Assembly: GCA_000720995.1 (NCBI GenBank)
Contig: JOEL01000001.1
Coordinates: forward strand, 371,686 to 435,685
Length of the DNA stretch: 64,000 bases
Direction of reading: 5' to 3'
Origin: Streptomyces celluloflavus
GTDB taxonomy: Bacteria; Actinomycetota; Actinomycetes; Streptomycetales; Streptomycetaceae
Positions 40,622-54,052 of this stretch are shown in pieces. A program made the position numbers and the translations under genes. Positions within the stretch are counted from its first letter, which is position 1. The number at the start of each line of letters is the position of its first letter. A model generated the notes under the pieces. It made no database searches. It was given only the letters and a program-made list of their open reading frames with translations, and was not told the DNA's origin.

Positions 40622-41169
40622 GGCAGGCCCTGCCGTCAGCACTGCCCACTGGCGGCTTCAGGACGGCATCGTGACGAGCCTGCCGTGACCGTTCGGCGAA
40701 CTGGTCCGCAGGGCCCGGCTCACCGCTGAGCAGGGCGAGGAGATACATCAACCAGCCATGCGTACCGCGGACGTGACCACTCACCATCGGTGAGGGCGAC
40801 CACCGGTCGGGAAGATGCCCCGGTCTCTCGGTTGCCGAGGGTCCGGCGGTTTATGAGCTGGCTGGCCGGCTGCACCCTCACCAGCCTCCTCACGTCCCCG
40901 GCTCTTCCCGCCGCGAGCCGTTCGCCGGGACCAGCACACGCACCGCCGCGAAGCTCAGTCTTCGCACCGGGGTTACGCCGCTCTACGAACGTTTCCAGTG
41001 GAAACGACCGTGCCGTATGGGCAGGGCGGACGTCGGCGTCGTCGCGCTGAGGTGGGCCGGCCGCTGGCCGCCCCTGTACGGGTGGCCAGCGGGGGCGGGG
41101 GCGGGGTCAGGCTTGGCAGTACGTCAGGCGCAGGGCATCGTCGTGATGGGCGAGGGCTACCCGGTCGGC
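40622..41169. other. Spacer with a 17-bp palindrome at 40990-41006
   Basis: No gene was supported. CGTTTCCA-G-TGGAAACG (40990-41006) is a perfect odd palindrome that could be an operator, but no regulator is next to it. Confidence 0.4.
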
Positions 41170-41859
41170 TCAGTTGTCCCGCTCGCGCCATTGCGCGCGG
41201 TTGCCCTCAACCTCGGCGATGCTCGGGTGTCGCACGGCGTCCAGCCGCTCATCAGCGAGAAGGTCGGCGATCAAGGCCGGGGGTCCGAAGACCTCGGTCG
41301 CGCTGAGGTCCCAGTTGGTGAGGACGAACCAGGAGCCCTCCAGGGGCCACCAGTGCGCGGGGAACTGGGTTGTGACGGCCCGGTTCGGCCACGCGCAGGC
41401 GTCATGGTGAGCGAGTGCCTCATCCAGCCGGCCCCGACGGGCCGGGATCGGGCAGCCGATGTCCTCGATCGTGGCCTGAGCCCAGTAGCACTCCGTGCGC
41501 AACCCGTTGGGGCTGTGGCGGGCGAGGATCTCCACCAGGCGGGCCAGACTGTCGCGGTCGATCTCGCCCACGTCCGGGCCTTTAAAGCCTTCGGGCCGGT
41601 CCAGCTCTCCGAAGACCCGGAAGGAGGGGGTGTACGACCAGTCCTCCAGGCGCTTGCCGGCCTGCGTCAGCACGTCGTCCCACCTGACTCGCTTCCCTCC
41701 CACCGTGATGGTGTGCAGAACCCAGCAACGATCAGGGAAACCCTCCTGGGGCTCGTAGCCCAAGATGGCCCCGTCCTCGTCCAGAAGCGGGCGCATACCG
41801 CCCAGCGAATCATCGTCCGACACAAGCTCCAACACGGAATCCCTCGGCACTTCGATCAT
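41170..41859 (-). CDS. Hypothetical protein, 229 residues
   Basis: A cytoplasmic, acidic protein starting [17 protein letters not shown] and containing Trp-rich [20 protein letters not shown]. No signal peptide, membrane helix or recognised catalytic motif. Codon use fits the neighbours. It is isolated between two spacers on the minus strand. The order of W- and D-rich segments looks like a small globular Streptomyces protein seen near toxin loci, but the family was not identified. Confidence 0.7.
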
Positions 41860-41879
41860 GCATCTGACGTTCTGTAACC

Positions 41880-42495
41880 GATGGAGCTTAAACGACAGGT
41901 TGGGAAGCGACAGGCTGAGAGGGGAACCAACACGTGGTCCAGGGCGCCACTGGCAAGATCGCGGCAGGTCCTCATCGCCCTGAGAGGGGTACCCCGGTCC
42001 CAGATTTCGTCAGGGCGCCGACCACTGCCGAGGACAGCGTGGCGACCGAGCCGAAGACCCCTACCTCGGTCTGCGACTCGGGCCGCGCCGGTCCGTCCTC
42101 ATCGGGCAACACCGTCGGTCCGTCCGCTGACCTGGCGCAAGGAGGAGCGAGGCGGCCCGGCGGCCGTGACGGATCAGAAGGAATGCCGCATCGGATTGGC
42201 GCCGTGACGAGCGGCCCGAGAGCTCCCCGCAGCCGACAGAGGGCTGGGCGGCCGGTGAGCCCCGGACCGCGACGGACACGACACATCGCGGCAGTCCGAT
42301 ACAACACGGACGCCCGCTATCTGACGCCGCGTCTGGCATCAATCGAAGTTCCTGGCAACAGTCGAATGTGGCGCGGTAGCCGATGCCGAAGGTCCGGCTG
42401 ATCCGGGCCCGGCCCTCTGGTGCGGCGTGTGACCGCCTTGCCCTCGTCGGATGTCCTGTGCCGCGGGCCGGGAGCGATCCCCGAGCCATCCCGCT
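41880..42495. other. Gene-free stretch
   Basis: About 600 bases with only short, non-convincing frames. No hairpin, repeat or RNA was recognised. Lower coding-like bias than the flanks suggests relict sequence. Confidence 0.4.
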
Positions 42496-43521
42496 TCAGC
42501 GCACGGTGATGACCAGCTTGCCCGTGGTGCGGCCCGTCTCGCCCAGGATGTGGGCTCGGGTGCCTTCGGCGAGGGGGAAGGTGCCGGAGACGTGAGCGCG
42601 GAGCCTGCCCCGGTCGACGAGCTCGGCGATGGCGCGCATCCCGGCCTGGTCGTGCTCCACGAGCAGGGTGACAGCGCGGACCTGCGCCTTCTCCGCCGCG
42701 GCCTGGGTTTCCTCGGTGCTCGGCAGCAGCGAGACGAGGACGCCGCCGGGGCGGAGCACGCTCACGGAACGGGTGGCGGTCTCCCCGCCGAGGGCGTCAA
42801 GGACGACGTCGTAGCGCTCCTCGGTGTCGGCGAAGTCCTCGGAGCGGTGGTCGATGCAGGCATCCGCGCCGAGTTCGCGCAGGAAGTCGTGCTTGGGGGC
42901 GCTCGCCGTCCCGGTGATGTGCGCGCCGCGCTCCTTGGCGATCTGTACGGCGAGATGGCCGACACCGCCGGCCGCGGCGTGGATCAGCACCCGCTGCCCG
43001 GCCCGGAGGCCCGCGGTTTCGACGAGGGCTTGCCAAGCGGTGAGCGCGGCCAGCGGCAGAGCGGCCGCCTGCACATGGTCGATTCCGGCGGGCTTGGCGG
43101 TGAAGGCGCGGGTGGGGCCGGTCACGTACTCGGCGTGGGAGCCGGCCCCGTACGGGTAGGGCAGCATGCCGAACACCTCGTCACCGGGCCGGAAGAGGGT
43201 GACGCCGAAGCCGGTCTCCACCACGGTGCCGGAGACGTCCCAACCGAGGGTCAGCGGCGGGGGCGGCAGGAACATGTTCAGGGCACGGTGCTTGAAGTCC
43301 GTGGGGTTGAGCCCGGCCGCGTGCACGGCGACGAGGATCTCCCCGGGGCCGGGCGCGGGCCGCGGAAGCTCCGTCAGCCGGAGGACCTCGGGACCGCCGA
43401 GGGCCGTCTGGTGCAGGGCGAGCATCACGGGGGAGTCGTCGGGAGCGGTGGGGTTCGGGGCGTCCGTGGCGGCCGCCGGATGCGGTGAGTTGAGGTTCTC
43501 AGGGGTGTCCGTCGAAGTCAT
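42496..43521 (-). CDS. Zinc-independent quinone oxidoreductase (MDR superfamily)
   Basis: A 341-residue NADPH-dependent reductase. The GroES-like N-domain is clear (GEILVAVHAAGLNPTDFKHR, LGWDVSGTVVETG), followed by the Rossmann signature VLIHAAAGGVGHLAVQIAKE and the C-terminal GKLVITV end. It lacks the zinc ligands of alcohol dehydrogenases. A 35-residue Pro/Ala/Asp-rich leader precedes the domain from ATG 43521. It is divergent from a GlxA-type regulator over a 69-base gap, its probable controller. Confidence 0.9.
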   Translation of the reverse strand: MTSTDTPENLNSPHPAAATDAPNPTAPDDSPVMLALHQTALGGPEVLRLTELPRPAPGPGEILVAVHAAGLNPTDFKHRALNMFLPPPPLTLGWDVSGTVVETGFGVTLFRPGDEVFGMLPYPYGAGSHAEYVTGPTRAFTAKPAGIDHVQAAALPLAALTAWQALVETAGLRAGQRVLIHAAAGGVGHLAVQIAKERGAHITGTASAPKHDFLRELGADACIDHRSEDFADTEERYDVVLDALGGETATRSVSVLRPGGVLVSLLPSTEETQAAAEKAQVRAVTLLVEHDQAGMRAIAELVDRGRLRAHVSGTFPLAEGTRAHILGETGRTTGKLVITVR

Positions 43522-43590
43522 GCCTCGATCCTGGCCGTACGGTCCGCCCCGGACGATGGCAAGAAGGTCATCCTCCGATACATTCCTGCC

Positions 43591-44712
43591 ATGCCCGTCG
43601 ACCCTGCCGCCCGCCACGTCCCCGGCGCCTGCGGTACTCCCGCTGCCCGCCCCGCGTCCGCCGCGCCTTCCCGGGCCCGTGACCTCGCCGCCCGCGCGGC
43701 GGAACTGGACCGCCAGATGCGCCCGGACCCGCGACCCGAAGCCCACAAGGTCGCCGTCCTCGCCCTCGACGGCGTCTACCCCTTCGAACTCGGCATCCCG
43801 CACCGGGTCCTGGGTTCCGCCGATGGCCGCTACGAGGTGCTGTCCGCGAGCGCGGACGGGCAGCCCGTGCGTACCGACTCGGACCTGACCGTCATCCCCG
43901 GGCACGGTCCGGAGGTGCTGGCCGAGGCGGACACCGTGGTCATCCCGCCGTACGCGATCTCCCGGGCCCCGGCCCCGCAAGCTCTGGCCGCCCTGTCCCG
44001 CGTCCGCCCCGGCACCCGTCTGGTGTCCATCTGCACCGGCGCTTTCCTGCTGGCCGCCGCCGGTCTGCTGGACGGGCGCCGGGCCACCACCCACTGGGCG
44101 CTTGCGGACCACTTCCAGGAGCTGTTCCCCCGGGTCGAGCTCGACGCCGGCGTGCTCTTCGTCGACCACGGTGACGTGCTGACCTCGGCGGGCGCGGCGA
44201 GCGGTGTCGACGTCTGTCTGCACCTGGTGCGCCAGGACCACGGCAGCGAGGTGGCCAACCAGGTCGCCCGCCGCTGCGTCGTGCCCCCGTACCGGGACGG
44301 CGGGCAGGCGCAGTACATCGAGCGGCCGCTGCCGCCGGTGAGCGGAACCGGCACCGGGCCGACCCGCGACTGGGCGTTGCAGCGGCTGGAACTGCCGCTG
44401 TCGCTGGACGAGATGGCCGTGCACGCGGCGATGAGCACCCGCACCTTCGCCCGGCGCTTCCGGGAGGAGACCGGTCTGAGCCCCGGCCGCTGGCTGACCC
44501 AGCAGCGGCTGCGGCAGGCGCGGCACCTGCTGGAGTCCAGCGACCTGCCGGTGGAACGGGTCGCCCACGAGGTCGGCTTCGCCACCGCCACCTCGCTGCG
44601 GCGGCACCTGGCGGCGGAGGCGGGGGTCGCCCCGTCGGAGTACCGGCGCACTTTCCGTGCCTCGGGTCCAGCCGCGGGCGGCGTCAGGGAAGCATCAGGA
44701 CCTGGCGGCTGA
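43591..44712 (+). CDS. GlxA-type regulator (DJ-1/PfpI domain plus AraC HTH)
   Basis: A 373-residue transcription factor. A leader of about 45 residues is followed by the DJ-1/PfpI domain (KVAVLALDGVYPFELGIPHR, cysteine in LVSICTGAFLLAAAGLLDGR) and a C-terminal AraC helix-turn-helix pair (LSLDEMAVHAAMSTRTFARR, TGLSPGRWLTQQRLRQARHL, VAHEVGFATATSLRRHL). It is divergent from the quinone oxidoreductase gene. GlxA homologues control secondary metabolism or detoxification; the target here is inferred from position. Confidence 0.92.
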   Translation: MPVDPAARHVPGACGTPAARPASAAPSRARDLAARAAELDRQMRPDPRPEAHKVAVLALDGVYPFELGIPHRVLGSADGRYEVLSASADGQPVRTDSDLTVIPGHGPEVLAEADTVVIPPYAISRAPAPQALAALSRVRPGTRLVSICTGAFLLAAAGLLDGRRATTHWALADHFQELFPRVELDAGVLFVDHGDVLTSAGAASGVDVCLHLVRQDHGSEVANQVARRCVVPPYRDGGQAQYIERPLPPVSGTGTGPTRDWALQRLELPLSLDEMAVHAAMSTRTFARRFREETGLSPGRWLTQQRLRQARHLLESSDLPVERVAHEVGFATATSLRRHLAAEAGVAPSEYRRTFRASGPAAGGVREASGPGG

Positions 44713-44739
44713 GCCGGATCCCGCCACACACCTCAGCCG
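44706..44739. terminator. Bidirectional terminator between convergent genes
   Basis: CGGCTGAG (44706-44713) pairs with CTCAGCCG (44732-44739). The stem includes the stop of the GlxA gene and the stop of the DUF6801 gene, so both converge on it. Confidence 0.6.
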
Positions 44740-45587
44740 TCGTCACCGGCATGGCGACGGCGCTTCGCCCGCGAGCTGAGGAGAAAGAGGCCGCCGCCCG
44801 CGACAAGGGCGCCTACGGCCAGCAGTGTCAGGTCCGTGGCGCCCTGGCCGGTGTTCGCGATGGTGCCCCGCCCCGTACCGTTGCCCATGGACGCCGGCAG
44901 AGCCGACGCCCCGGCGGAGGCCGCGCCCGAAGTGGCGGAGGCGGGCGAACCGGCCGCCTTCCCCGCCCCCACGACCTTGAACGATGCCACGACGGGCCGC
45001 GGATGGGCATTGAGCTTGCACCCTACGTTGATCGGGCCCAGGGTTTCGCCGTTCGCTTTCTGCCCGGCGAGTTTCAGGGTGAGGTCGCCAACGGCGATCT
45101 GTACGTTGCCCGGCTTGTGGAACGTGCGAGAGGGGGTGGTGCCCGTCGCCTTGACGGCAAAGGCACGGTCGGAATCGGGAAGGGTGACCTTGTTGATGTC
45201 GAAGTGCACAGGGACGCTGAAGTCGCCGTCCGGAGAGTGCAGTTCTGCGTTCGCGTCCACCGTGCCCTCAATGGACTTCAGGTCCCCAATGGCGGTGTGG
45301 ATCAGGTGTGTGTCCTCCTTGCTCACCGTCGTCGTCGCGTCGAGGGGGAATTTCGGGGTGGACTTGCCGGCCGTGACCGAATCCGGAATATCCGAGTGGA
45401 TCTCCATCGGGACGGACTTGCTGAACAGAGGAACTGAACATGTGTAGTTCAGTGTGCGCGAAACCGGGTGCGCGAAGGCGGCGCCAGCTCCGGAAACTCC
45501 CACGGCTCCGGCGATGATTCCCGCTGCCGTCGCTACCCGGAGCACCACCCTCGTTTTTGACCTTGCTGCGTTGCGCCTGCCATTCAT
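44733..45587 (-). CDS. DUF6801-type secreted, wall-anchored protein
   Basis: A 284-residue exported protein. Signal peptide (VLRVATAAGIIAGAVGVSGA, cleavage after AFA), then a DUF6801-like beta domain (LNYTCSVPLFSKSVPMEIHS), an Ala/Ser/Gly linker and a sortase-type end: IANTG, one hydrophobic helix and RAKRRRH. The IANTG pentapeptide is close to the LAxTG class E sorting motif of Streptomyces. It ends convergently with the GlxA gene. Confidence 0.85.
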   Translation of the reverse strand: MNGRRNAARSKTRVVLRVATAAGIIAGAVGVSGAGAAFAHPVSRTLNYTCSVPLFSKSVPMEIHSDIPDSVTAGKSTPKFPLDATTTVSKEDTHLIHTAIGDLKSIEGTVDANAELHSPDGDFSVPVHFDINKVTLPDSDRAFAVKATGTTPSRTFHKPGNVQIAVGDLTLKLAGQKANGETLGPINVGCKLNAHPRPVVASFKVVGAGKAAGSPASATSGAASAGASALPASMGNGTGRGTIANTGQGATDLTLLAVGALVAGGGLFLLSSRAKRRRHAGDDG

Positions 45588-45654
45588 GAGCTGTCCCCAA
45601 TCGGTCGATCAGCGGTGATTCTCATCGGTCAGCGCCTGTCACGTTTCTTCGTGT

Positions 45655-48534
45655 TCAAGGCGACGCGCTTCCGGTCGCCAATGGTTCCCGCTCGGCCATA
45701 ATCGGTGAACTCGGCCGGCGGGAGGCATGGTGCGTCTGGAAGGTGTGAGCCAGGTGGGCTTCGAGTTGTGCGTGACGGAATTGGTAGACCGCGCCGGCCC
45801 TGCGCAACACCCCTCGTTCGTGGGCGTCGTCCAGGAAAGCGACCACCGCCCAGGGCAGCCGCCCGGTCAGCGGCAACCATATGCGCGACAAGGCCACCCA
45901 CTGACCCCAAGCGGTGAAACTCAGTCCGTATCCGAGCCCGCCCCCGAACGCGCCCTCGATCCCGAAGGTGAGCCCGGCCAGCAGCCCGAGAACGGGTCCG
46001 GTCGCGAACTCACCTAGGTACCCGGGCGCGCCCCCGATGGCGATTCCGGCCGGGAGCCCGAGCACGAGCAACCACACGAGCATATAGACGAACGCGTTCT
46101 TGCGGTTCGTCCTCAACAGGTCCGAAGCGCTGATAGCGGATGTGGTGTCAATAGGGGTTTCCAACCAGGCCATGATCGCCAGCGCGAACCCGGCGCCCAA
46201 CCCCAGCTCCGCCGGGAACAGCAATGCGCCTCGGAGCCCGCCACTGAGTCCGTCGTCGAACCCCAACGGCCCGATGACAAACCTGTCCAAGAGCTCCAGC
46301 GCAATCGCAGCCGGCACCCCGAAAGAGAACCCCAGCACGAACCTGCGGATGATCTCGGCGGCATTCCGTCGGATCCCGCCGAAGAGCTGGATGTGCAGCG
46401 TCGATGGCTCGGACGCCGGGCCCCTGCGTGCGAATCCGTACACCAACCCGAAGACCAAACCGGCCACCAGCCCGTGCAGGAGCCAGACCAGGAGCCCACG
46501 CTCGATCGCGAACCCGAGCGGATGCGTCGTCCCGACCAAGTCCACGGGCAGGTTCCCGATCCCGGTCGGCACTCCCAAAGCCATCCCGGCCAGGAACCCG
46601 ACCACGAGCATGCGTGTCGAACGGCTTACCGCGGCGCCCAGTTGCCACCACGCGAGGTCATGGGTACGGAGTTCGGCAAGGTGTGCGGCGAGGTAGCCGA
46701 GCCAGTGCTGGGCATGTTCGGGAGTCCAGTGACGGCGGCGTCGGCGGGGACGGTCCGCGTCGCGATCGTCCGTGGGCGCGAGTTTGTAGACGGCGGGGAT
46801 GAACGCGGCCAGGAGATGCTTTTGCAGGGCTTCCGGCGTGGGGAAGTCCAGCAGCTCCCGGGGGTCTTGTCCGGGAGCGTCGCTGTAGATGGTGCGGGCC
46901 AGGGAGACCATCAGCGGGGTGGAGAGAACCTCGGCGAGGTTCGCCGTGCACGGGGTGAACGGCGTTTCGCGTAACCGTGCCAGGACGGTGTCCCAGACGG
47001 TACTGTCCGGGCCGCCGCCTCTGACCGGCCGGCTGGCTCGGGTCAGGTAGTCGCCGTAGTCCTCTACGGTGAGACCCTCCAATTCGATGACCGCGGCGGC
47101 GGTCAGCACGTCGGATTCTTTGGAGTCGTTGACGGCCCTGCTGTATTCGTCCGGGCGGCTGGTGAGCAGCAGCGGCATGGTGGTGGCCTTGTTGAGCGCT
47201 TCGAGCGCCTTGCCGTGCAGGCCGCTGGGGATCTCGTCGAAACCGTCCAGAACGGGAAGGATCTTGCCCGTGTCGAGCAGGGCGCGGGCAAAACTGCCGC
47301 CGTGCGCGGCCGGAGCCGCGAGGAAGGGGTGGTCGCGCACCAGTTGGGCGCACATCCAGTCGCGCAGTGAAGTGGCGGCCGGATCCCAGGAACCCAGGCC
47401 GAAGATCACCGGTACCCGGTCGCCGGGGACGCGGGCATCGAGCCAGTCGACGAGGAAGCGCAGGGTGAGGATCGACTTGCCCGCCCCGGCCTCACCCAGC
47501 ACCACCAGCCGAGAGGAGGGGACGGAGAGGTACGCCTCCACGATCTGGTCGAGTTCACCGTCCAGCGGGAGGGGATGTGCGGCTGCCCCGCGCGGGAGCT
47601 TGCGGATGTTGGCCCAGTGATCGAAGACATTCCGGTCGGTGCACCGGAAACGCAGGGGGAGCGGGAACGGGTCGTGCACCCGCCGCTGCTCCTCCTCCTT
47701 GCGCCATTGTCTGGACACCTCGCGGGCCAGCGCTTCGGCCGGGTCGTCATCAGCCAGCTGTAGCTGTGCGGATGGCGGTGGGAGCCGCGTGAGGTGGGCG
47801 GCACGGGTCGGCAAGCCGATCAGTTCGCTCAGTTCATCGATCTGATCTCGACTGAGACTCTTGTACCAGCGTTGTACCCGGCTTGCCGTGAGTCTGCCTG
47901 GACCGTCGGTGGCGTGATGCAGGCTGACCACTCCGATCAGGTACCCGCTGCTCCACACCGCGGCTCCCGACATCCCTTCCCATGGGGAGCGGCCCTCCGG
48001 ATCGGCCCCCGGAGCGCTTACGGAGATCTCCAGGGTGCCTTTGCGCAGGTCCGCCCATGGCGTGGTGCTGCCCAGCGCATGGTGGGAATCCCGGTACTGC
48101 GTGGTCCTATTGAGCTCCGATGATGCAATGTCGATACGCAGCTTGAATTTGGGGAACCCCAGCGATTCGCAATCCACGGGCTGGGTGATGCGGCCGAACC
48201 GCACCGGCGGGACCTCTAGGGCGTACATCCCTCTGCTGCCCGCGTCCTGCGCGATCTTGAGCACCGCGATATCGACTCCGGAGTCCTCCCACAACGGATC
48301 CGGCTCGGCCGGCACATCCGTGACGACACCGTCCTCGGTGAGGAAACGCAGCGTGACCGAGATCGCGTCCCGCACGACATGCGCGGCTGTGAGCACCGTA
48401 TTCCCACTCACGCGGTAGCCCGATCCGCGCCACCTCTCGCCTCCGCGCCCGATGACGAGGACCTGGACCACTCGCCGTACATCGAACCCGTCCGGCTCGG
48501 ACGCCTCGGTCGCGCCGCCGTCCGCGGCACTCAT
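45655..48534 (-). CDS. Trypsin-like protease - NACHT ATPase - membrane domain protein
   Basis: A 959-residue three-part protein. Residues 1-220 are a trypsin/HtrA-like protease with catalytic His52 (LTAAHVV), Asp88 (DIAVLK) and Ser189 (GMSGAAVW). Residues about 310-560 form a NACHT-type STAND ATPase with Walker A LGEAGAGKS (about 345), Walker B LPVLDGFDEIP (about 425) and a sensor TSRPDEYSR. Residues about 640-870 contain paired hydrophobic helices. It ends in a short hydrophilic tail. The ATG overlaps the trypco2 gene stop (ATGA). STAND protease fusions of this type are predicted bacterial conflict/defence proteins: invader sensing would drive NTP-dependent assembly and activate the protease. 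The membrane domain is an unusual third part. Confidence 0.9.
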   Translation of the reverse strand: MSAADGGATEASEPDGFDVRRVVQVLVIGRGGERWRGSGYRVSGNTVLTAAHVVRDAISVTLRFLTEDGVVTDVPAEPDPLWEDSGVDIAVLKIAQDAGSRGMYALEVPPVRFGRITQPVDCESLGFPKFKLRIDIASSELNRTTQYRDSHHALGSTTPWADLRKGTLEISVSAPGADPEGRSPWEGMSGAAVWSSGYLIGVVSLHHATDGPGRLTASRVQRWYKSLSRDQIDELSELIGLPTRAAHLTRLPPPSAQLQLADDDPAEALAREVSRQWRKEEEQRRVHDPFPLPLRFRCTDRNVFDHWANIRKLPRGAAAHPLPLDGELDQIVEAYLSVPSSRLVVLGEAGAGKSILTLRFLVDWLDARVPGDRVPVIFGLGSWDPAATSLRDWMCAQLVRDHPFLAAPAAHGGSFARALLDTGKILPVLDGFDEIPSGLHGKALEALNKATTMPLLLTSRPDEYSRAVNDSKESDVLTAAAVIELEGLTVEDYGDYLTRASRPVRGGGPDSTVWDTVLARLRETPFTPCTANLAEVLSTPLMVSLARTIYSDAPGQDPRELLDFPTPEALQKHLLAAFIPAVYKLAPTDDRDADRPRRRRRHWTPEHAQHWLGYLAAHLAELRTHDLAWWQLGAAVSRSTRMLVVGFLAGMALGVPTGIGNLPVDLVGTTHPLGFAIERGLLVWLLHGLVAGLVFGLVYGFARRGPASEPSTLHIQLFGGIRRNAAEIIRRFVLGFSFGVPAAIALELLDRFVIGPLGFDDGLSGGLRGALLFPAELGLGAGFALAIMAWLETPIDTTSAISASDLLRTNRKNAFVYMLVWLLVLGLPAGIAIGGAPGYLGEFATGPVLGLLAGLTFGIEGAFGGGLGYGLSFTAWGQWVALSRIWLPLTGRLPWAVVAFLDDAHERGVLRRAGAVYQFRHAQLEAHLAHTFQTHHASRRPSSPIMAEREPLATGSASP

Positions 48535-48830
48535 TGCTCGTCCCGGCCGGCGCGGCCGGAGACGAACGGCGGATTGTGCGACCCGTTGAGGGTGGGCTGC
48601 AATGTCAGTTTGATCAGCTGCGTCGAGGTGCGGTTCGCCGTCGCCTCCACATCGGACTCCACCACCCAGAACCGTACCTTCGCTCCCGCGCGCCCGGTCC
48701 GCTCCACCGCGACCGACAATTCCAGTTCGATCGCCCCCAGTTCAAAGCGCAGCGTTTCACCTTCCGCCGCGTCGACCGCCTGTTCCAATTCCTCCCGCAG
48801 ATTCCTGATCACACTGGCCAACTCGATCAT
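48531..48830 (-). CDS. Trypco2-domain protein
   Basis: A 99-residue protein. Residues 1-80 match the trypsin-co-occurring domain 2: IELASVIRNLREELEQAVDA, LRFELGAIELELSVAVERTG, KVRFWVVESDVEA and TSTQLIKLTLQP. The stop overlaps the start of the trypsin-NACHT gene by four bases. This domain is known mainly from operons with trypsin-like effectors in predicted conflict systems and probably recruits or regulates the protease. The tail is short and polar. Confidence 0.85.
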   Translation of the reverse strand: MIELASVIRNLREELEQAVDAAEGETLRFELGAIELELSVAVERTGRAGAKVRFWVVESDVEATANRTSTQLIKLTLQPTLNGSHNPPFVSGRAGRDEQ

Positions 48831-49049
48831 CCGTGCCCCCTACGCCGGTGCCAGTCGGTCACGAAAAACTCTAACCGCGTGGAAGCCTCAACACGTCGAT
48901 TTTGCAAGGCAGTTGACACCAATGGGGGACATCGGGTGGCGCGAGCCGCTGCTGCCGGTGAGGCGTACCCGATGCTCGCGGACGTAGAGGTGGACGCATG
49001 CGGCAGATGGCTGACTTTCGCAAGCTTTGCTGGAGGCCCTGCCGGTAGG

Positions 49050-49260
49050 CCCCCTGCTGCCGAGCCCTTTCATTCCTCAGATCGGTCAGGACGGCGTCGG
49101 TGAACTCGACTCGCAGCGGCAGCATCCACTCGCCGAACTTCCGGTCGGTGAGGGCGACACAGCCCGCCCCCGCATCGGGGTTGACCCACAGGAAGTGTCC
49201 ATCGACGAGAAGTCCGCGGCCCAGGCCCGCGAGCGACGTCACCCCGCCCGGCCTGCCGGG
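49050..49260 (-). pseudogene. Possible C-terminal fragment of a beta-lactamase-like serine hydrolase
   Basis: The minus frame reads FLWVNPDAGAGCVALTDRKF then GEWMLPLRVEFTDAVL, much like the last strand and helix of beta-lactamase/esterase EstB proteins (LWVDP...GVGCVALTDR-FG-W). The N-terminal part with SxxK and YxN motifs is absent. Remaining bases of 48831-49384 show no supported gene. Confidence 0.45.
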
Positions 49261-49384
49261 CTGGGACAACCCGTCCGGCCTGAGTTCGAGTGCCGCCGCG
49301 ACGGCACCGCTTCGATCACCGCCGCACTTCCGGCGCTCTTGGGCCGCAGCCGGCCGGACAGTGCCGTTCGGCCGGGCGGCGCCT

Positions 49385-50680
49385 TCACCGGCGTGTGAAG
49401 GCGCCCCGGGCGTCGTCCTGGTCGTGCGCAGCCGCGGTCGGGTCTTGGCTCCGTCGGTGCCGGCCGGCCCATTGGGGGAGCGAGAATCCGTCGGCGGCTG
49501 TCTCCTCGCGGCAGAGGGGCTTGCCGAAGGCGAGGAGGCGGCGGGCCGCGATGTGGTCTGCCGGTGCGTTGACGGACTCGACGCCCGCGAGGAGTCCGTC
49601 TTTGAACAGCAGAACGGAGAACGATCCGGTCGCCGGGTCGCCGAGGACCGTGCTCTCGTCGTGGCCTTGTCCGAGGCCGGCGATCTGGAGCTTCGTCGAG
49701 AACTGTTCGGTCCAGAACCAGGGGACGGCGGTGTAGGCGGCGGGGGTTCCCGTCAGGCGGGCGGCGAGGCAGCGGGCCTGGTCGACGGCGTTCTGGATCG
49801 ATTCGAGCCGGGTCCGGGTCCCGGTGTGGGCGTTGGGGAATTCGGCGCAGTCGCCGATGGCGGAGATGCGCGGGTCGCTGGTGCTCAGGAAGGCGTTGAC
49901 CCGGATGCCGTCTCCGACGTCGATTCCGGCATCGGCCGCGAGTTCGACGGCGGGTGCCACGCCGACTCCGACGACCACGAGGTCCGCCGGAACGCGGCTG
50001 CCGTCGTGGAGCCGGACGCCGGTGACGGCGCCGGTGTGGTCGCCGTCGAGGCGTACGACCGTACGGCCCAGGTACAGCGTGGTGCCCTGTGCCCGGTGCA
50101 GGTCGGCGACGTGTGTCGAGGTCGCGATGGATACCGCCCGCGCCATCGGGCGGTGGAGCGCCTCGATGACGGTGGTCGTGATGCCCGTCTTCGCCGCGGC
50201 GGCCGCCACCTCCATGCCGATGAACCCGGCACCGATGATCGCCAGGTGTGAGGCGGTTGGCAGTCGGGTGCGCAGCCGTTCGGCGTCGTCCTGGGTGCGG
50301 AGCTGGACGATCCCGTCCAGGGTGATGCCCTCGATCGGTGGGATGCGGTTGCGGGCTCCCGTGGCCAGGACGAGATGGTCGTACGCCAGGGTGTTTCCGT
50401 CGGTCAGGTGGACCCGCCGGGTGGACCGGTCGATGGAGGCGACTCGGGTGTGCCGGAGTGCGATGTGGCGGCGCTCGTAGAAGGAGTGGGGGCGCAGCTC
50501 GATCTGTGTCTCGGGGTGCAGCAGGAAGCTTTTCGACAGGGGTGGCCGTTGGTAGGGCAGGCCCGGTTCGTCGCCGACGAGGATGACGGGCCCGGCGTGT
50601 CCTCGTTCCCGCAGCGAGGTCGCGACCTGGAAGCCGCCCTGCCCCGCGCCGACGATCACGACGGTTGCGCCGGGCTTCAT
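49385..50680 (-). CDS. Ferredoxin reductase of the P450 operon (FAD/NAD)
   Basis: A 431-residue flavoprotein of the putidaredoxin-reductase type. FAD motif VVIVGAGQGGFQVATSLRER, active segment LPYQRPPLSKSFL, NAD motif AIIGAGFIGMEVAAAAAK, and the second FAD motif ISAIGDCAEFP. It passes electrons from NADH to the [2Fe-2S] ferredoxin for the P450. ATG overlaps the ferredoxin stop (ATGA). About 25 extra disordered residues at the C-terminus. Confidence 0.95.
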   Translation of the reverse strand: MKPGATVVIVGAGQGGFQVATSLRERGHAGPVILVGDEPGLPYQRPPLSKSFLLHPETQIELRPHSFYERRHIALRHTRVASIDRSTRRVHLTDGNTLAYDHLVLATGARNRIPPIEGITLDGIVQLRTQDDAERLRTRLPTASHLAIIGAGFIGMEVAAAAAKTGITTTVIEALHRPMARAVSIATSTHVADLHRAQGTTLYLGRTVVRLDGDHTGAVTGVRLHDGSRVPADLVVVGVGVAPAVELAADAGIDVGDGIRVNAFLSTSDPRISAIGDCAEFPNAHTGTRTRLESIQNAVDQARCLAARLTGTPAAYTAVPWFWTEQFSTKLQIAGLGQGHDESTVLGDPATGSFSVLLFKDGLLAGVESVNAPADHIAARRLLAFGKPLCREETAADGFSLPQWAGRHRRSQDPTAAAHDQDDARGAFTRR

Positions 50681-51000
50681 GTCCGGCTCCCCGGTACGGT
50701 CACGACCATCGTGTCGATCGTGTCGCCGGCCGGGAGTTGGCAGCTCAGCCGGCTGGCGGTGGTTCGTGGCGCGTCGGTGCAGGCGAGCATCTGGTCCTCG
50801 TCGTCGGTCATGGCCGGGAGCTGGCCGGCTCCCGGGTCCTCGACGTAGACGTGGCAGGTCGCGCACATCATGTTGCCGCCGCATTCGCCGACGATTCCGT
50901 CCACGTCGGCGGCGAGGGCGGCCGACATGACCGAGTCGCCGGGGGCGGCGTTGATGGTGACGCGGGTGCCGTCGGGCTGTCTGTAGATGATCTTCGTCAT
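50677..51000 (-). CDS. [2Fe-2S] ferredoxin (putidaredoxin type)
   Basis: A 107-residue ferredoxin. Cluster ligands are the cysteines in GECGGNMMCATCH (C-x5-C-x2-C) and the late one in MLACTDAP, the adrenodoxin/putidaredoxin pattern. It starts at ATG 51000 overlapping the FAH-family gene stop, and its stop overlaps the reductase start. It would shuttle single electrons from the reductase to the P450 encoded upstream. Confidence 0.96.
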   Translation of the reverse strand: MTKIIYRQPDGTRVTINAAPGDSVMSAALAADVDGIVGECGGNMMCATCHVYVEDPGAGQLPAMTDDEDQMLACTDAPRTTASRLSCQLPAGDTIDTMVVTVPGSRT

Positions 51001-51947
51001 GGCAACGTCCGAGTGGTGGTTGTGGTGGTCCCGTACAGGGCGGTGTCTTCGTCCGTGACCCGTTGGCGCAGCTCGCCGAGGCCGGTGATGCTGCCGCGGA
51101 TCTCGTCGCCTTCGACGAGGTAGGCCGGCGGGTCGAGCTCGAATCCGCAGCCGCTCGGGGTGCCGGTGAGGATCACGTCGCCGGGGAGCAGGTCCATGGT
51201 GTTGCTGATCGACGCGATCAGGGCCGGTACGTCGAAGAGCATGTCGCTGCTCCAGCCGTCCTGGCGGGCTTGTCCGTTGACCGACAGCCGCAGGTTCAGC
51301 GGCTCGGAGTCCGGCCGTTCGTCGTGCTCGTCGCGCATGAGCAGCCAGGGTCCGGTAGCGCAGAACGACGGGAAGCCCTTGCCCCGGACGAGTTGCATCT
51401 GCAAGGGCGAGTGGAGTCCGGCGCCCAGGGCCACGTCCCGCGCGGTGACATCGTTGGCGATCATGTGGCCGGCGACGTGGGCGAGGGCGTCGGCGGGGGC
51501 TATCCGCCGTCCCGCCCGGCCGATCACGACGGCCAGTTCGAGTTCGTAATCGAGGGCCGTCGTCTCGGGCGGTTTGATCAGCGGGTCGTAGGGCCCGCAC
51601 ACGCTGCCCGGCGGCTTGAGGAACAGGACGGGCTCGGTGGGCGCGGTCTGATGCCCGAGCACGGCGTCGGAGTGCATCGGGTAGTTGAACCCGACGGCGA
51701 TCACCTTGCCGGGACGCGGTACCGGCGGCCCCAGGCGCACGTTGGCGCGTGCGATGTGGTGCCGGGTGTCGTGCAGTGCCGCTGCCACGAGGGGGCGGAC
51801 CGTCGGCCACAGCGCGAGGAGGTGTGTGGTGTCCGTGCCGGGGAGCCCGAGGGGCGCGAGAACTGGTGCGAGGGGCAGAATCGTGTGGTCGTCGACCAGC
51901 ACGCCCGGCTGTTCGCCGCCGGGTCCGCCGAAACTGACGATACGCAT
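50997..51947 (-). CDS. Fumarylacetoacetate hydrolase family protein
   Basis: A 316-residue metal-dependent C-C hydrolase or decarboxylase. Family motifs: VIAVGFNYPMHSD, LFLKPPGSVCGPYDP, the metal-ligand DYELELAVVIGRAG, AHVAGHMIANDVTARDV, and GDVILTGTPSGCGF. The glutamates in DYELE and the aspartate in NDVTARD are the likely metal ligands. It is part of the P450 operon and probably cleaves or hydrates a 2-oxo acid formed later in the same catabolic route. ATG 51947. Confidence 0.93.
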   Translation of the reverse strand: MRIVSFGGPGGEQPGVLVDDHTILPLAPVLAPLGLPGTDTTHLLALWPTVRPLVAAALHDTRHHIARANVRLGPPVPRPGKVIAVGFNYPMHSDAVLGHQTAPTEPVLFLKPPGSVCGPYDPLIKPPETTALDYELELAVVIGRAGRRIAPADALAHVAGHMIANDVTARDVALGAGLHSPLQMQLVRGKGFPSFCATGPWLLMRDEHDERPDSEPLNLRLSVNGQARQDGWSSDMLFDVPALIASISNTMDLLPGDVILTGTPSGCGFELDPPAYLVEGDEIRGSITGLGELRQRVTDEDTALYGTTTTTTRTLP

Positions 51948-51985
51948 GTCGTCTCCAGGAGAAGGGGTGTCGGCAGAGGGCGGCG

Positions 51986-52828
51986 TCACCACGCGGGGTG
52001 TGCGTCGACATGTGTGACTCCCGCGAAGTGTTCGGGGTGCGCGCGCATCCACCGCGCGATCTCGGCCGACCGGGCGTGCCAGACGCGGTCGTCGGCGTCG
52101 AGTCGGTCCATCAGGGTGGCGATGGCGGCGACCTTGTCCGGGGTGTCCTGCCAGAGCACGTGGAACACGTACGACGCGAAGCCGCCGGCCTCGACGGTCT
52201 CTTCGAGGAACCGCTGGTGCGCGCGGAGCAGGACGTCCGGGCCGACCGGATGGTCGCCCGGGTCCTCCTCGCGCAGCCGCGTGAAACCGGGGATGTAGTA
52301 GGCGCCGTCGACGCCCGTCCACGGGTAGGGCAGCAGTGCCAGCCCGTCCTGAACGCCGTGGACGTCGCCGGCCAGTGAGGCGAGCTCGAACCCGTACTCG
52401 CGCAGCAGCGCCGGCGAGTGGTCGCCGAGCAGGCCGGCGGGAGGGCGGGCCGCGACCGGCCGGATGCCCAGCCGGTCGTACCGCTCGAAACTGCGGTCCA
52501 GGGCCGTGCGCGATGCGGGGCCGTCCGTCCGGGCCCACGGTTCGTGCAACCAGCCGTGCCACCCGATGTCGTGGCCGGCCTCCGCGATGGACAGCACGGC
52601 GTCCGGGTAGGTGTCGACGTTCCACGCCTCCAGGTAGAAGGTCGACCGCACCGGCCGCTCGCGCAACATCTCCAGAAGGTTCGGGAGCTCGTCGGACACA
52701 CTGTGGTGCCTCCCGACCGGGACGTGGCCGGGCCAGGACCCCATCTGGAGCTCGGCGGCCTCGCCGAGGTGGTCGAACGTGACACACGCCGCGGCCCGCC
52801 GCCCGCCGGGCCACCTTCCTGCGGTCAC
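51986..52828 (-). CDS. NodB-fold (polysaccharide deacetylase-like) hydrolase
   Basis: A 280-residue NodB-homology protein with motif 1 CVTFDHLGE (TFD but with H where the second D is usual), the metal histidines WHGWLHEP (H-x3-H) and a catalytic-arginine-like RPPAGLLG segment. There is no signal peptide, so it acts inside the cell, like the PuuE/allantoinase-type subgroup on small amides rather than polysaccharides. GTG start three bases after the P450 stop, so coupled. Confidence 0.85.
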   Translation of the reverse strand: MTAGRWPGGRRAAACVTFDHLGEAAELQMGSWPGHVPVGRHHSVSDELPNLLEMLRERPVRSTFYLEAWNVDTYPDAVLSIAEAGHDIGWHGWLHEPWARTDGPASRTALDRSFERYDRLGIRPVAARPPAGLLGDHSPALLREYGFELASLAGDVHGVQDGLALLPYPWTGVDGAYYIPGFTRLREEDPGDHPVGPDVLLRAHQRFLEETVEAGGFASYVFHVLWQDTPDKVAAIATLMDRLDADDRVWHARSAEIARWMRAHPEHFAGVTHVDAHPAW

Positions 52829-52831
52829 CGC

Positions 52832-54052
52832 CTACACCCCGTTCGGCGCGACCGTCAGCGCCGTCATCGCGCGGAACACGAGGTCGTCGGTCCACGGGGG
52901 GTTCGGGTCGGTGAGCGTCATCGCGGGCAGGCGCTGCGGCAGGACCCGGAGCAGGACGTCGCCCTCCAACCGGGACAGCGGGGCACCCATGCAGTAGTGA
53001 CCGCCCGCGGTGAAGGCCAGGTGGCGGTTGCCAGTGCGCCGGATGTCGAACGTGTCCGGGTCGGCGAAGCGGCGTTCGTCGCGATTGGCCGACGCGATCC
53101 CGAGCAGCAGTTGCGTGCCCTCGGCGACGGTCTCGCCGTGGAGCTCGAACTCGTAGCCGGCGTACCGGGTGATGAAGTGCACCGGTGACTGCCAGCGCAG
53201 CACCTCCTCCCACGCCGCCGGCGCCAGGTCCGGGTCGGCGGCGAGCAGCCGCATCTGGTCGGGATGGGACAGCAACGCGTGGACGGCACTGGTCATCGCC
53301 GTCATCGTGGTGTGGTAGCTGGCGATGAAGAATCCGACGAGCGTCACGATCAGCTCGTCCCGGCTGACTCGGCCGCCGGCCTCCTCGGCCAGCATCAGCG
53401 CGCCGACCGGGTCCTCGGGGCCGAGCTTTCCACGCTGCGAGTCGACGATCTCGCCGATGTAGTCGAAGTAGAACTGCGCGGCCTGATCGGCCTCGGCCAG
53501 TTCGTCCGGCGTGAGGGGAGCGTGGGTCAACAGGCGGTTGAGCGCGGGCATCCGTCGCAGTACCGTCCCCGCGTCGGCGGCGGGGGCGTGCAGCAGTCGG
53601 CACGCGATCTCCGCAGGCACGCGCATGCCGAAGTGCTCGACGAAGTCGACCTCGCCATCGACCGTGGCGAGCGCCTCGACGTTGTCGATGATGATCCGCT
53701 CGACCCACGACCGCATGTGGGCCAGCGCCCGCGGCGCGAACGCAGGCGAGGCGAGCTTGCGCAGCCGGGTGTGCGTCGGGGCGTCCAGGTCCGGCAGCGA
53801 CAGTTTGTGGAAGGTGGCGCCGGGGCCGGGGCCGGTGCCGATGCCGGCCGGGAACTCGCCGGCCTTCGGCTGCACCCGCATCAGCGGATCCTTGAAGATC
53901 CGCTCGATGTCGGCGTAGCGGGTCAGGACGGCTCTCGTGCCGTCGGGTCCGACCCGGGCGACGGGGGTGTGGTCGCGCAGCCGCCGGTAGGCCGGGAATC
54001 GATCGGTGCGGAACGTGGGATCACCGAGGCTCAGATACGCCAAGGCGGACAT
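52832..54052 (-). CDS. Cytochrome P450, first gene of catabolic operon
   Basis: A 406-residue soluble bacterial P450. ExxR in WEEVLRW, the haem-binding loop FTAGGHYCMGAPLSRLE, and a meander PDTFDIRR. The I-helix reads GFFIASYHTTMTAM: where most P450s have A-G-x-D/E-T-T this one has A-S-Y-H-T-T, so the usual acid is a histidine. A GAGGAG site precedes ATG 54052. With its own ferredoxin and reductase downstream it forms a complete class I system. Substrate not determined; hydroxylation is expected to open the catabolic pathway. Confidence 0.93.
   Translation of the reverse strand: MSALAYLSLGDPTFRTDRFPAYRRLRDHTPVARVGPDGTRAVLTRYADIERIFKDPLMRVQPKAGEFPAGIGTGPGPGATFHKLSLPDLDAPTHTRLRKLASPAFAPRALAHMRSWVERIIIDNVEALATVDGEVDFVEHFGMRVPAEIACRLLHAPAADAGTVLRRMPALNRLLTHAPLTPDELAEADQAAQFYFDYIGEIVDSQRGKLGPEDPVGALMLAEEAGGRVSRDELIVTLVGFFIASYHTTMTAMTSAVHALLSHPDQMRLLAADPDLAPAAWEEVLRWQSPVHFITRYAGYEFELHGETVAEGTQLLLGIASANRDERRFADPDTFDIRRTGNRHLAFTAGGHYCMGAPLSRLEGDVLLRVLPQRLPAMTLTDPNPPWTDDLVFRAMTALTVAPNGV

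Follow-up and report, generated by a model that had tools for sequence, protein, structure and literature searches.

A candidate membrane-embedded NLR-like cassette with a trypsin-like protease in Streptomyces celluloflavus

The usual description of NLR-like proteins is of receptors in the cytoplasm that sense through a C-terminal part. In the excerpts through which papers are cited here, bacterial NACHT defence proteins have their effector at the N-terminus and their sensor at the C-terminus (PMC12169576), the Trypco2 family takes its name from genes beside the trypsin-like peptidases of predicted VMAP ternary systems (PMC7159879), Trypco domains recur in systems linked to diversity-generating retroelements (PMC10907252), and in the CARD-NLR systems of L. 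enzymogenes and of Caulobacter (LypABC) trypsin-like peptidases work together with STAND ATPases (PMC13236601). Here we describe a three-gene cassette in a 64,000-nucleotide stretch of Streptomyces celluloflavus DNA (contig JOEL01000001.1, positions 371,686 to 435,685; referred to as the window, with all coordinates below counted from its first letter), in which a gene for a trypsin-like protease fused to a NACHT ATPase and a set of predicted membrane helices lies between a trypco2 gene and a DUF6801 gene. With a probability of roughly 0.5, we read it as a membrane-embedded NLR-like (STAND/NACHT) surveillance cassette that senses the envelope and has a protease as its output. This reading draws on conserved protease and ATPase residues, an NLR-like fold with an insert, partners that are unique in the genome, the linkage to DUF6801 and trypco2, N-terminus swaps within one clade, patchy occurrence, a caspase-fused relative and the surface-like fold of DUF6801. 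The parts of the cassette are as follows:

44724..49034, no strand assigned: cassette extent, taken from the DNA in common with the nearest relative (blastn to locus L125)
48531..48830, minus strand: trypco2 gene, 99 aa, leading gene of the cassette (PF19631, 3.1e-26)
45655..48534, minus strand: trypsin-NACHT-membrane gene, 959 aa (Pfam, conserved residues, AlphaFold2 model)
47815..48483, minus strand: trypsin-like protease domain, about residues 18-240
48379-48381, 48271-48273 and 47968-47970, minus strand: codons of the catalytic triad His52, Asp88 and Ser189, respectively
46804..47748, minus strand: NACHT nucleotide-binding part and the helical part after it, about residues 263-577 (Pfam NACHT; VIA-align)
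47476-47496, minus strand: Walker A, residues 347-353
46624..46803, minus strand: predicted split winged-helix domain, first half, about residues 578-637 (AlphaFold2; VIA-align)
45916..46623, minus strand: predicted six-helix membrane insert, residues 638-873 (AlphaFold2 helices; hydropathy)
45706..45915, minus strand: predicted split winged-helix domain, second half, about residues 874-943 (AlphaFold2; VIA-align)
44733..45587, minus strand: DUF6801 gene, 284 aa, 67 bases downstream of the trypsin-NACHT-membrane gene

The three genes are all co-directional, and trypco2 overlaps the trypsin-NACHT-membrane gene by an ATGA on the minus strand (48531-48534). A first-pass annotation, made from the sequence alone, had given the same coordinates, strand, ATGA coupling and 959-aa length; it had correctly named the trypco2 partner and had overlooked DUF6801, which we count as the third gene of the unit because it is kept beside trypsin-type loci.

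The protease and ATPase assignments were examined by Pfam matches and alignment. Trypsin_2 matched residues 37-202 over its curated cut-off (1.3e-07) and NACHT (PF05729) matched residues 342-497 (5.8e-11; 42.9 bits versus a cut-off of 26.7), while the partner genes yielded 91.9 bits for Trypco2 (cut-off 24.2), adjoining the trypsin-like peptidase gene, and 66.3 bits for DUF6801 (PF20611; cut-off 26). His52, Asp88 and Ser189 were invariant in all nine aligned trypsin-type proteins, which together with the Trypsin_2 match bears out the full triad of the first-pass annotation. Its fusion of a protease to a NACHT ATPase was likewise borne out by the Pfam matches and by the Walker A/B residues G347, G350, G352, K353, D430, D433 and E434, invariant in 50 of 50 aligned NACHT-membrane proteins. 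Across fifty NACHT-membrane proteins, Pfam returned NACHT in 49, HTH_31 in 24, Trypsin_2 in nine and a caspase domain in one. Judged at the sequence level, the trypsin-NACHT-membrane/trypco2 feature is real and under constraint. Among known defence families, PADLOC gave partial matches to the protease stretch only (HamA1 1.7e-06, LmuA 1.7e-05, RT-Protease_XI 5.4e-04 and Avs1b 0.035) and zero matches to the Trypco2 protein. No whole-protein Avs1b match was found with NCBIfam either (E 0.14 and 9.2 bits versus a cut-off of 1500, protease stretch only), and all NCBIfam matches fell far under cut-off, such as EruA across 24 residues. With matches that were partial or under cut-off, HamA1, LmuA, RT-Protease_XI, Avs1b and EruA were all rejected as the family of the 959-aa protein.

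The AlphaFold2 model of the protein contained the nucleotide-binding, helical and winged-helix arrangement of the NLR type. VIA-align paired model residues 262-577 with NLRC4 94-368, and the alignments with NLRP3 and NLRC4 ran across the membrane insert to end at residues 937-943, on NLRP3 538 and NLRC4 465. Six helices (638-668, 673-702, 725-757, 766-791, 803-835 and 843-873), with a best 19-residue hydropathy of 1.37-2.33, make up the insert. In the model, helices 605-622 and 629-635 form the first half of the winged helix, and helix 897-906, strands 910-913 and 916-919, and helix 922-939 form the second. The membrane helices 638-873 are thus predicted to sit inside the NACHT winged-helix domain, of which the C-terminus would be the second half. 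The multi-helix membrane part noted in the first-pass annotation was therefore retained, and its placement as a third domain after NACHT was not: the structure prediction proposed there for residues 560-959 gave a split winged helix and no separate membrane domain, and on the model and the NLRP3/NLRC4 alignment a separate C-terminal membrane domain after NACHT was rejected. No C-terminal sensor domain was found past NACHT in the model, which ends with the winged helix (922-939, to 943) and a low-confidence or disordered tail. Among the matches listed, no separate structural match for the membrane insert was found, which does not imply a novel fold.

The linkage of the two partner genes was examined in two sets of loci that overlap partly and are hence not independent. 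The first comprised 78 NACHT-membrane loci (the window plus 77 others), and the second the 80 best-scoring NACHT-membrane loci of a capped scan. In the first set, the NACHT gene was preceded by trypco2 and followed by DUF6801 in 8/8 trypsin-type relatives examined; DUF6801 was present at 14 of the 78 loci and trypco2 at nine, these nine being the trypsin-type loci. In the second set, DUF6801 was adjacent at 16/16 trypsin-type, 5/54 XRE-type and 6/10 other loci, and trypco2 at 15/16 trypsin-type and 0/64 remaining loci, L127 being the sole trypsin-type locus without a credible trypco2 match. The pairing of trypco with trypsin that the first-pass annotation had compared to predicted conflict systems is supported by the excerpt of PMC7159879. 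The source genome (8.68 Mb) contained one DUF6801 and one Trypco2 match (E<=0.01), both in the cassette. The position of DUF6801 varied by locus (downstream, upstream or on the opposite strand), and its fold was surface-like. We take the 284-aa DUF6801 protein to be exported and surface-anchored, from export and anchor signals read by eye. Two further loci combined Trypco2 with a related trypsin but had no NACHT-membrane core; by eye, the trypsin of L044 precedes a single hydrophobic segment and another domain, and that of L045 a helical-looking domain.

We then compared DUF6801 linkage with descent in trees of 90 proteins, namely the window, all 80 second-set loci and nine of the 77 others, hand-picked as four of the five DUF6801-linked non-trypsin-type loci (DUF6801-linked L090 being omitted) and five unlinked ones. 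On the membrane-segment tree, 29 of the 32 DUF6801-linked rows fell within one clade of 31 (SH-aLRT 99), the remaining three (L080, L081 and L084) lying elsewhere. In the two clade members without DUF6801 (L176 and L067), the contig extends only about 360 and 460 bases, respectively, in the direction in which DUF6801 lies in their sisters. A NACHT-plus-membrane tree of the clade's 31 rows and five chosen outgroup rows supported the clade 100/100 against those five rows. The N-termini within the clade were 17 trypsin, 7 amyloid-like (a label presumed by eye), 6 XRE and 1 NTPase-like, requiring three changes. Because DUF6801 was kept while the N-terminus changed, it goes with the NACHT-membrane core and not with the output domain. 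DUF6801 labels changed four times on the membrane-segment tree and six times on the NACHT-segment tree, so that descent of the whole core accounts for the linkage almost as well as would a link to the membrane helices. A STAND/NLR logic with swappable N-termini was supported by one caspase-fused protein among the 50 aligned relatives (L086:3296-6091; Peptidase_C14 2.6e-16, the best of fifty proteins scanned). Separately, the DUF6801-linked NACHT-membrane genes of L080, L081 and L084 have a small gene before them, and the C-terminus of this upstream small gene resembles, by eye, a short amyloid-like motif near the start of the L080 and L081 NACHT protein.

Occurrence was patchy. With two candidates per genome scored in both tallies, the full-length trypsin form was found in 9/295 Streptomyces genomes, source genome included, and in 2/394 genomes of a class sample, both Streptomyces. 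The NACHT-membrane core was found, at the settings used, in 146/295 (E<=1e-30) and 40/394 (E<=1e-40). A housekeeping locus is ruled out by this distribution of the trypsin form; conservation across all Streptomyces, which the first-pass annotation had named as a refuting outcome, was thus not what we found. The source genome contains three more NACHT-membrane paralogs (L002, L003 and L004, of 947, 865 and 706 codons), in which no trypsin N-termini were seen by eye.

Several of our observations weigh against envelope surveillance with a protease output. DUF6801 was present in 100 of the 295 Streptomyces genomes, at 123 places often away from listed NACHT-membrane genes (at least 16 of the 123 lay within about 3 kb of one), and a specific tie between DUF6801 and the membrane helices is not separable from common descent. 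The loop 788-806, inner in the predicted topology, is not K+R rich (mean 0.9), the stretch containing Ser189 is poorly modelled, and the PADLOC and NCBIfam matches are partial and confined to the protease stretch or short NACHT pieces. Moreover, XRE N-termini dominate the relatives, many of which adjoin secreted hydrolase genes. In the second set, 54 of the 80 N-termini were XRE helix-turn-helix, 16 trypsin-type and 10 other, which points to a transcriptional output in those 54 and weighs against a purely death-type reading. Near the XRE-NACHT-membrane genes of L047-L079, L094 and L096, we often presume by eye secreted esterases (15 loci), secreted beta-lactamase-like enzymes (11) and cutinase-like hydrolases (14), as well as SARP-type regulator genes; neighbour enzyme names at the 78 loci were assigned by eye, with some antisense frames included. 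At L046, divergent vWA-type and PP2C-type phosphatase genes (by eye) were seen upstream of a DUF6801-linked XRE-NACHT-membrane gene.

The main rival to a defence reading, and a serious one, is envelope-stress or developmental signalling, in which DUF6801 would let the membrane NACHT read the state of the cell wall or surface, with the trypsin domain carrying out regulated proteolysis of a regulator. The XRE N-termini, which would act on promoters, and the proximity of many of the 78 loci to the secreted esterase, beta-lactamase-like, cutinase-like and SARP-type genes speak for it, whereas the patchy occurrence is unlike that of a core stress regulator, and N-termini of the trypsin, caspase and amyloid-like types, together with Trypco2, are characteristic of conflict systems (excerpt of PMC7159879); on balance we consider it rather unlikely. 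A bystander role for DUF6801, as a neighbour by common descent outside a device in which trypsin-NACHT-membrane and Trypco2 act alone, appears improbable: the scatter of DUF6801 over the 100 genomes and the restriction of the linked proteins mainly to one clade would suit it, but DUF6801 was kept through the three N-terminus changes, in varied position and strand, and is single-copy in the source genome. Least probable by our estimate is that the helices serve only as an anchor and that sensing takes place in the cytoplasm, as described for bacterial NACHT proteins: the three predicted outer loops are indeed short (668-673, 757-766 and 833-845), but the model has no C-terminal sensor domain past the winged helix and an apparently exported partner is kept.

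In the surveillance reading that we prefer, the six helices and DUF6801 would jointly act as the sensor and would keep the NACHT switch inactive at the inner membrane face. A trigger at the envelope, whether adsorption or injection by phage, damage to the wall or an alteration of DUF6801, might move the split winged helix, leading to nucleotide exchange and oligomerisation, which would bring the N-terminal proteases together. Trypco2 may serve as regulator or co-factor of the trypsin domain, which, once active, would cleave a host or self target so that the hypha is arrested or killed, or a further effector is released. In XRE-type relatives the same sensor might drive transcription. The data fit an accessory NLR-like device with a swappable output and a constant membrane or surface sensor, for which an anti-phage or death function is plausible. 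More tentatively, the cassette could represent a bacterial outside-in inflammasome, composed of a membrane-split NLR switch, exported DUF6801 and interchangeable trypsin/Trypco2, caspase, DNA-binding and amyloid-like outputs. If so, a membrane-split NACHT switch would couple envelope events directly to a protease or promoter, and NLR-type receptors would extend to integral membrane proteins that detect attack on the envelope and whose outputs are exchanged by domain replacement. How hyphae of Streptomyces could perceive phage or a damaged wall from the outside thereby becomes accessible to experiment, DUF6801 and Trypco2 are placed in a common setting, and the naturally occurring domain exchanges provide a means of telling sensor and output apart.

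Regarding the surroundings of the cassette, blastn to the nearest relative, L125 (Streptomyces sp. A 4/2), gave 86.5% identity over 44979-49034 and 80% over 44724-44923 and no other alignment across window positions 36000-58000; other relatives showed like limits. Six flank genes of the window were compared with the 16 second-set trypsin-type loci, and 14 of these loci matched none of the six. In L128 the left pair (GlxA type and alcohol dehydrogenase type) recurs on the same side of the cassette, and in L139 a GlxA-type gene lies on the opposite side, so that some positions may be common by descent, which counts against fully unrelated flanks. L128 and L139 aside, other flank DNA was common among trypsin-type loci only between L136 and L137. 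The left neighbour pair (42466-44704; alcohol dehydrogenase/GlxA-type) was about 90% identical in genome G003, in which the rest of the window was unaligned within 40 kb, and in 25 relatives the right flank matched only in part and more weakly. Sequence comparison suggests that the region is a mosaic of small units. No clean empty site was found, nor, at the cassette edges, any repeats except one 18-nt pair to the left. A phage origin was rejected (zero matches in 50,697 phage records), as was a plasmid origin: 16 plasmid records matched, none covering 80% of the protein, and the best 15 of the 16 matches begin at residue 232 or later. To the right of the cassette, 49385-54052 holds ferredoxin reductase and ferredoxin genes (Pfam) together with fumarylacetoacetate-hydrolase-like and P450-like genes (by eye).

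In the literature searched, which excluded most subscription journals and was seen partly as excerpts, we found neither a membrane-split winged helix nor a DUF6801 partner described, and the term DUF6801 was absent; the membrane part that the first-pass annotation could not place among described architectures was likewise unfamiliar there. By sequence membership the cassette protein is a NACHT-type STAND NTPase, and by analogy it may work like an NLR. With bNACHT/Avs and NLRP3/NLRC4 it has in common the NACHT Walker motifs, an NLR-like fold (nucleotide-binding, helical and winged-helix) and the N-terminal position of the effector. It differs from these in a winged helix that six predicted membrane helices interrupt, an apparently exported DUF6801 partner and the lack of a sensor domain after NACHT. 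The VMAP or MoxR-vWA ternary systems resemble the cassette, in the excerpt of PMC7159879, by a trypsin-like peptidase with an adjacent Trypco2 gene, whereas here the peptidase forms one protein with a NACHT-membrane core; a Pfam scan of seven neighbouring open reading frames (41017-52011) returned neither a MoxR nor a vWA family. As for CARD-NLR systems, the likeness, again from an excerpt (PMC13236601), is a trypsin-like peptidase acting with a STAND ATPase; no CARD was found among Pfam matches up to E 1, no fold test having been aimed at it, and in contrast the cassette protein is one polypeptide with membrane helices, accompanied by Trypco2 and DUF6801. The XRE-NACHT-membrane genes of actinobacteria, for which we found no name, have a homologous core, with about 44-52% identity over residues about 250-945 in the second set. 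They differ from the cassette in a DNA-binding N-terminus, the lack of Trypco2 and a DUF6801 gene that is adjacent in only 5/54.

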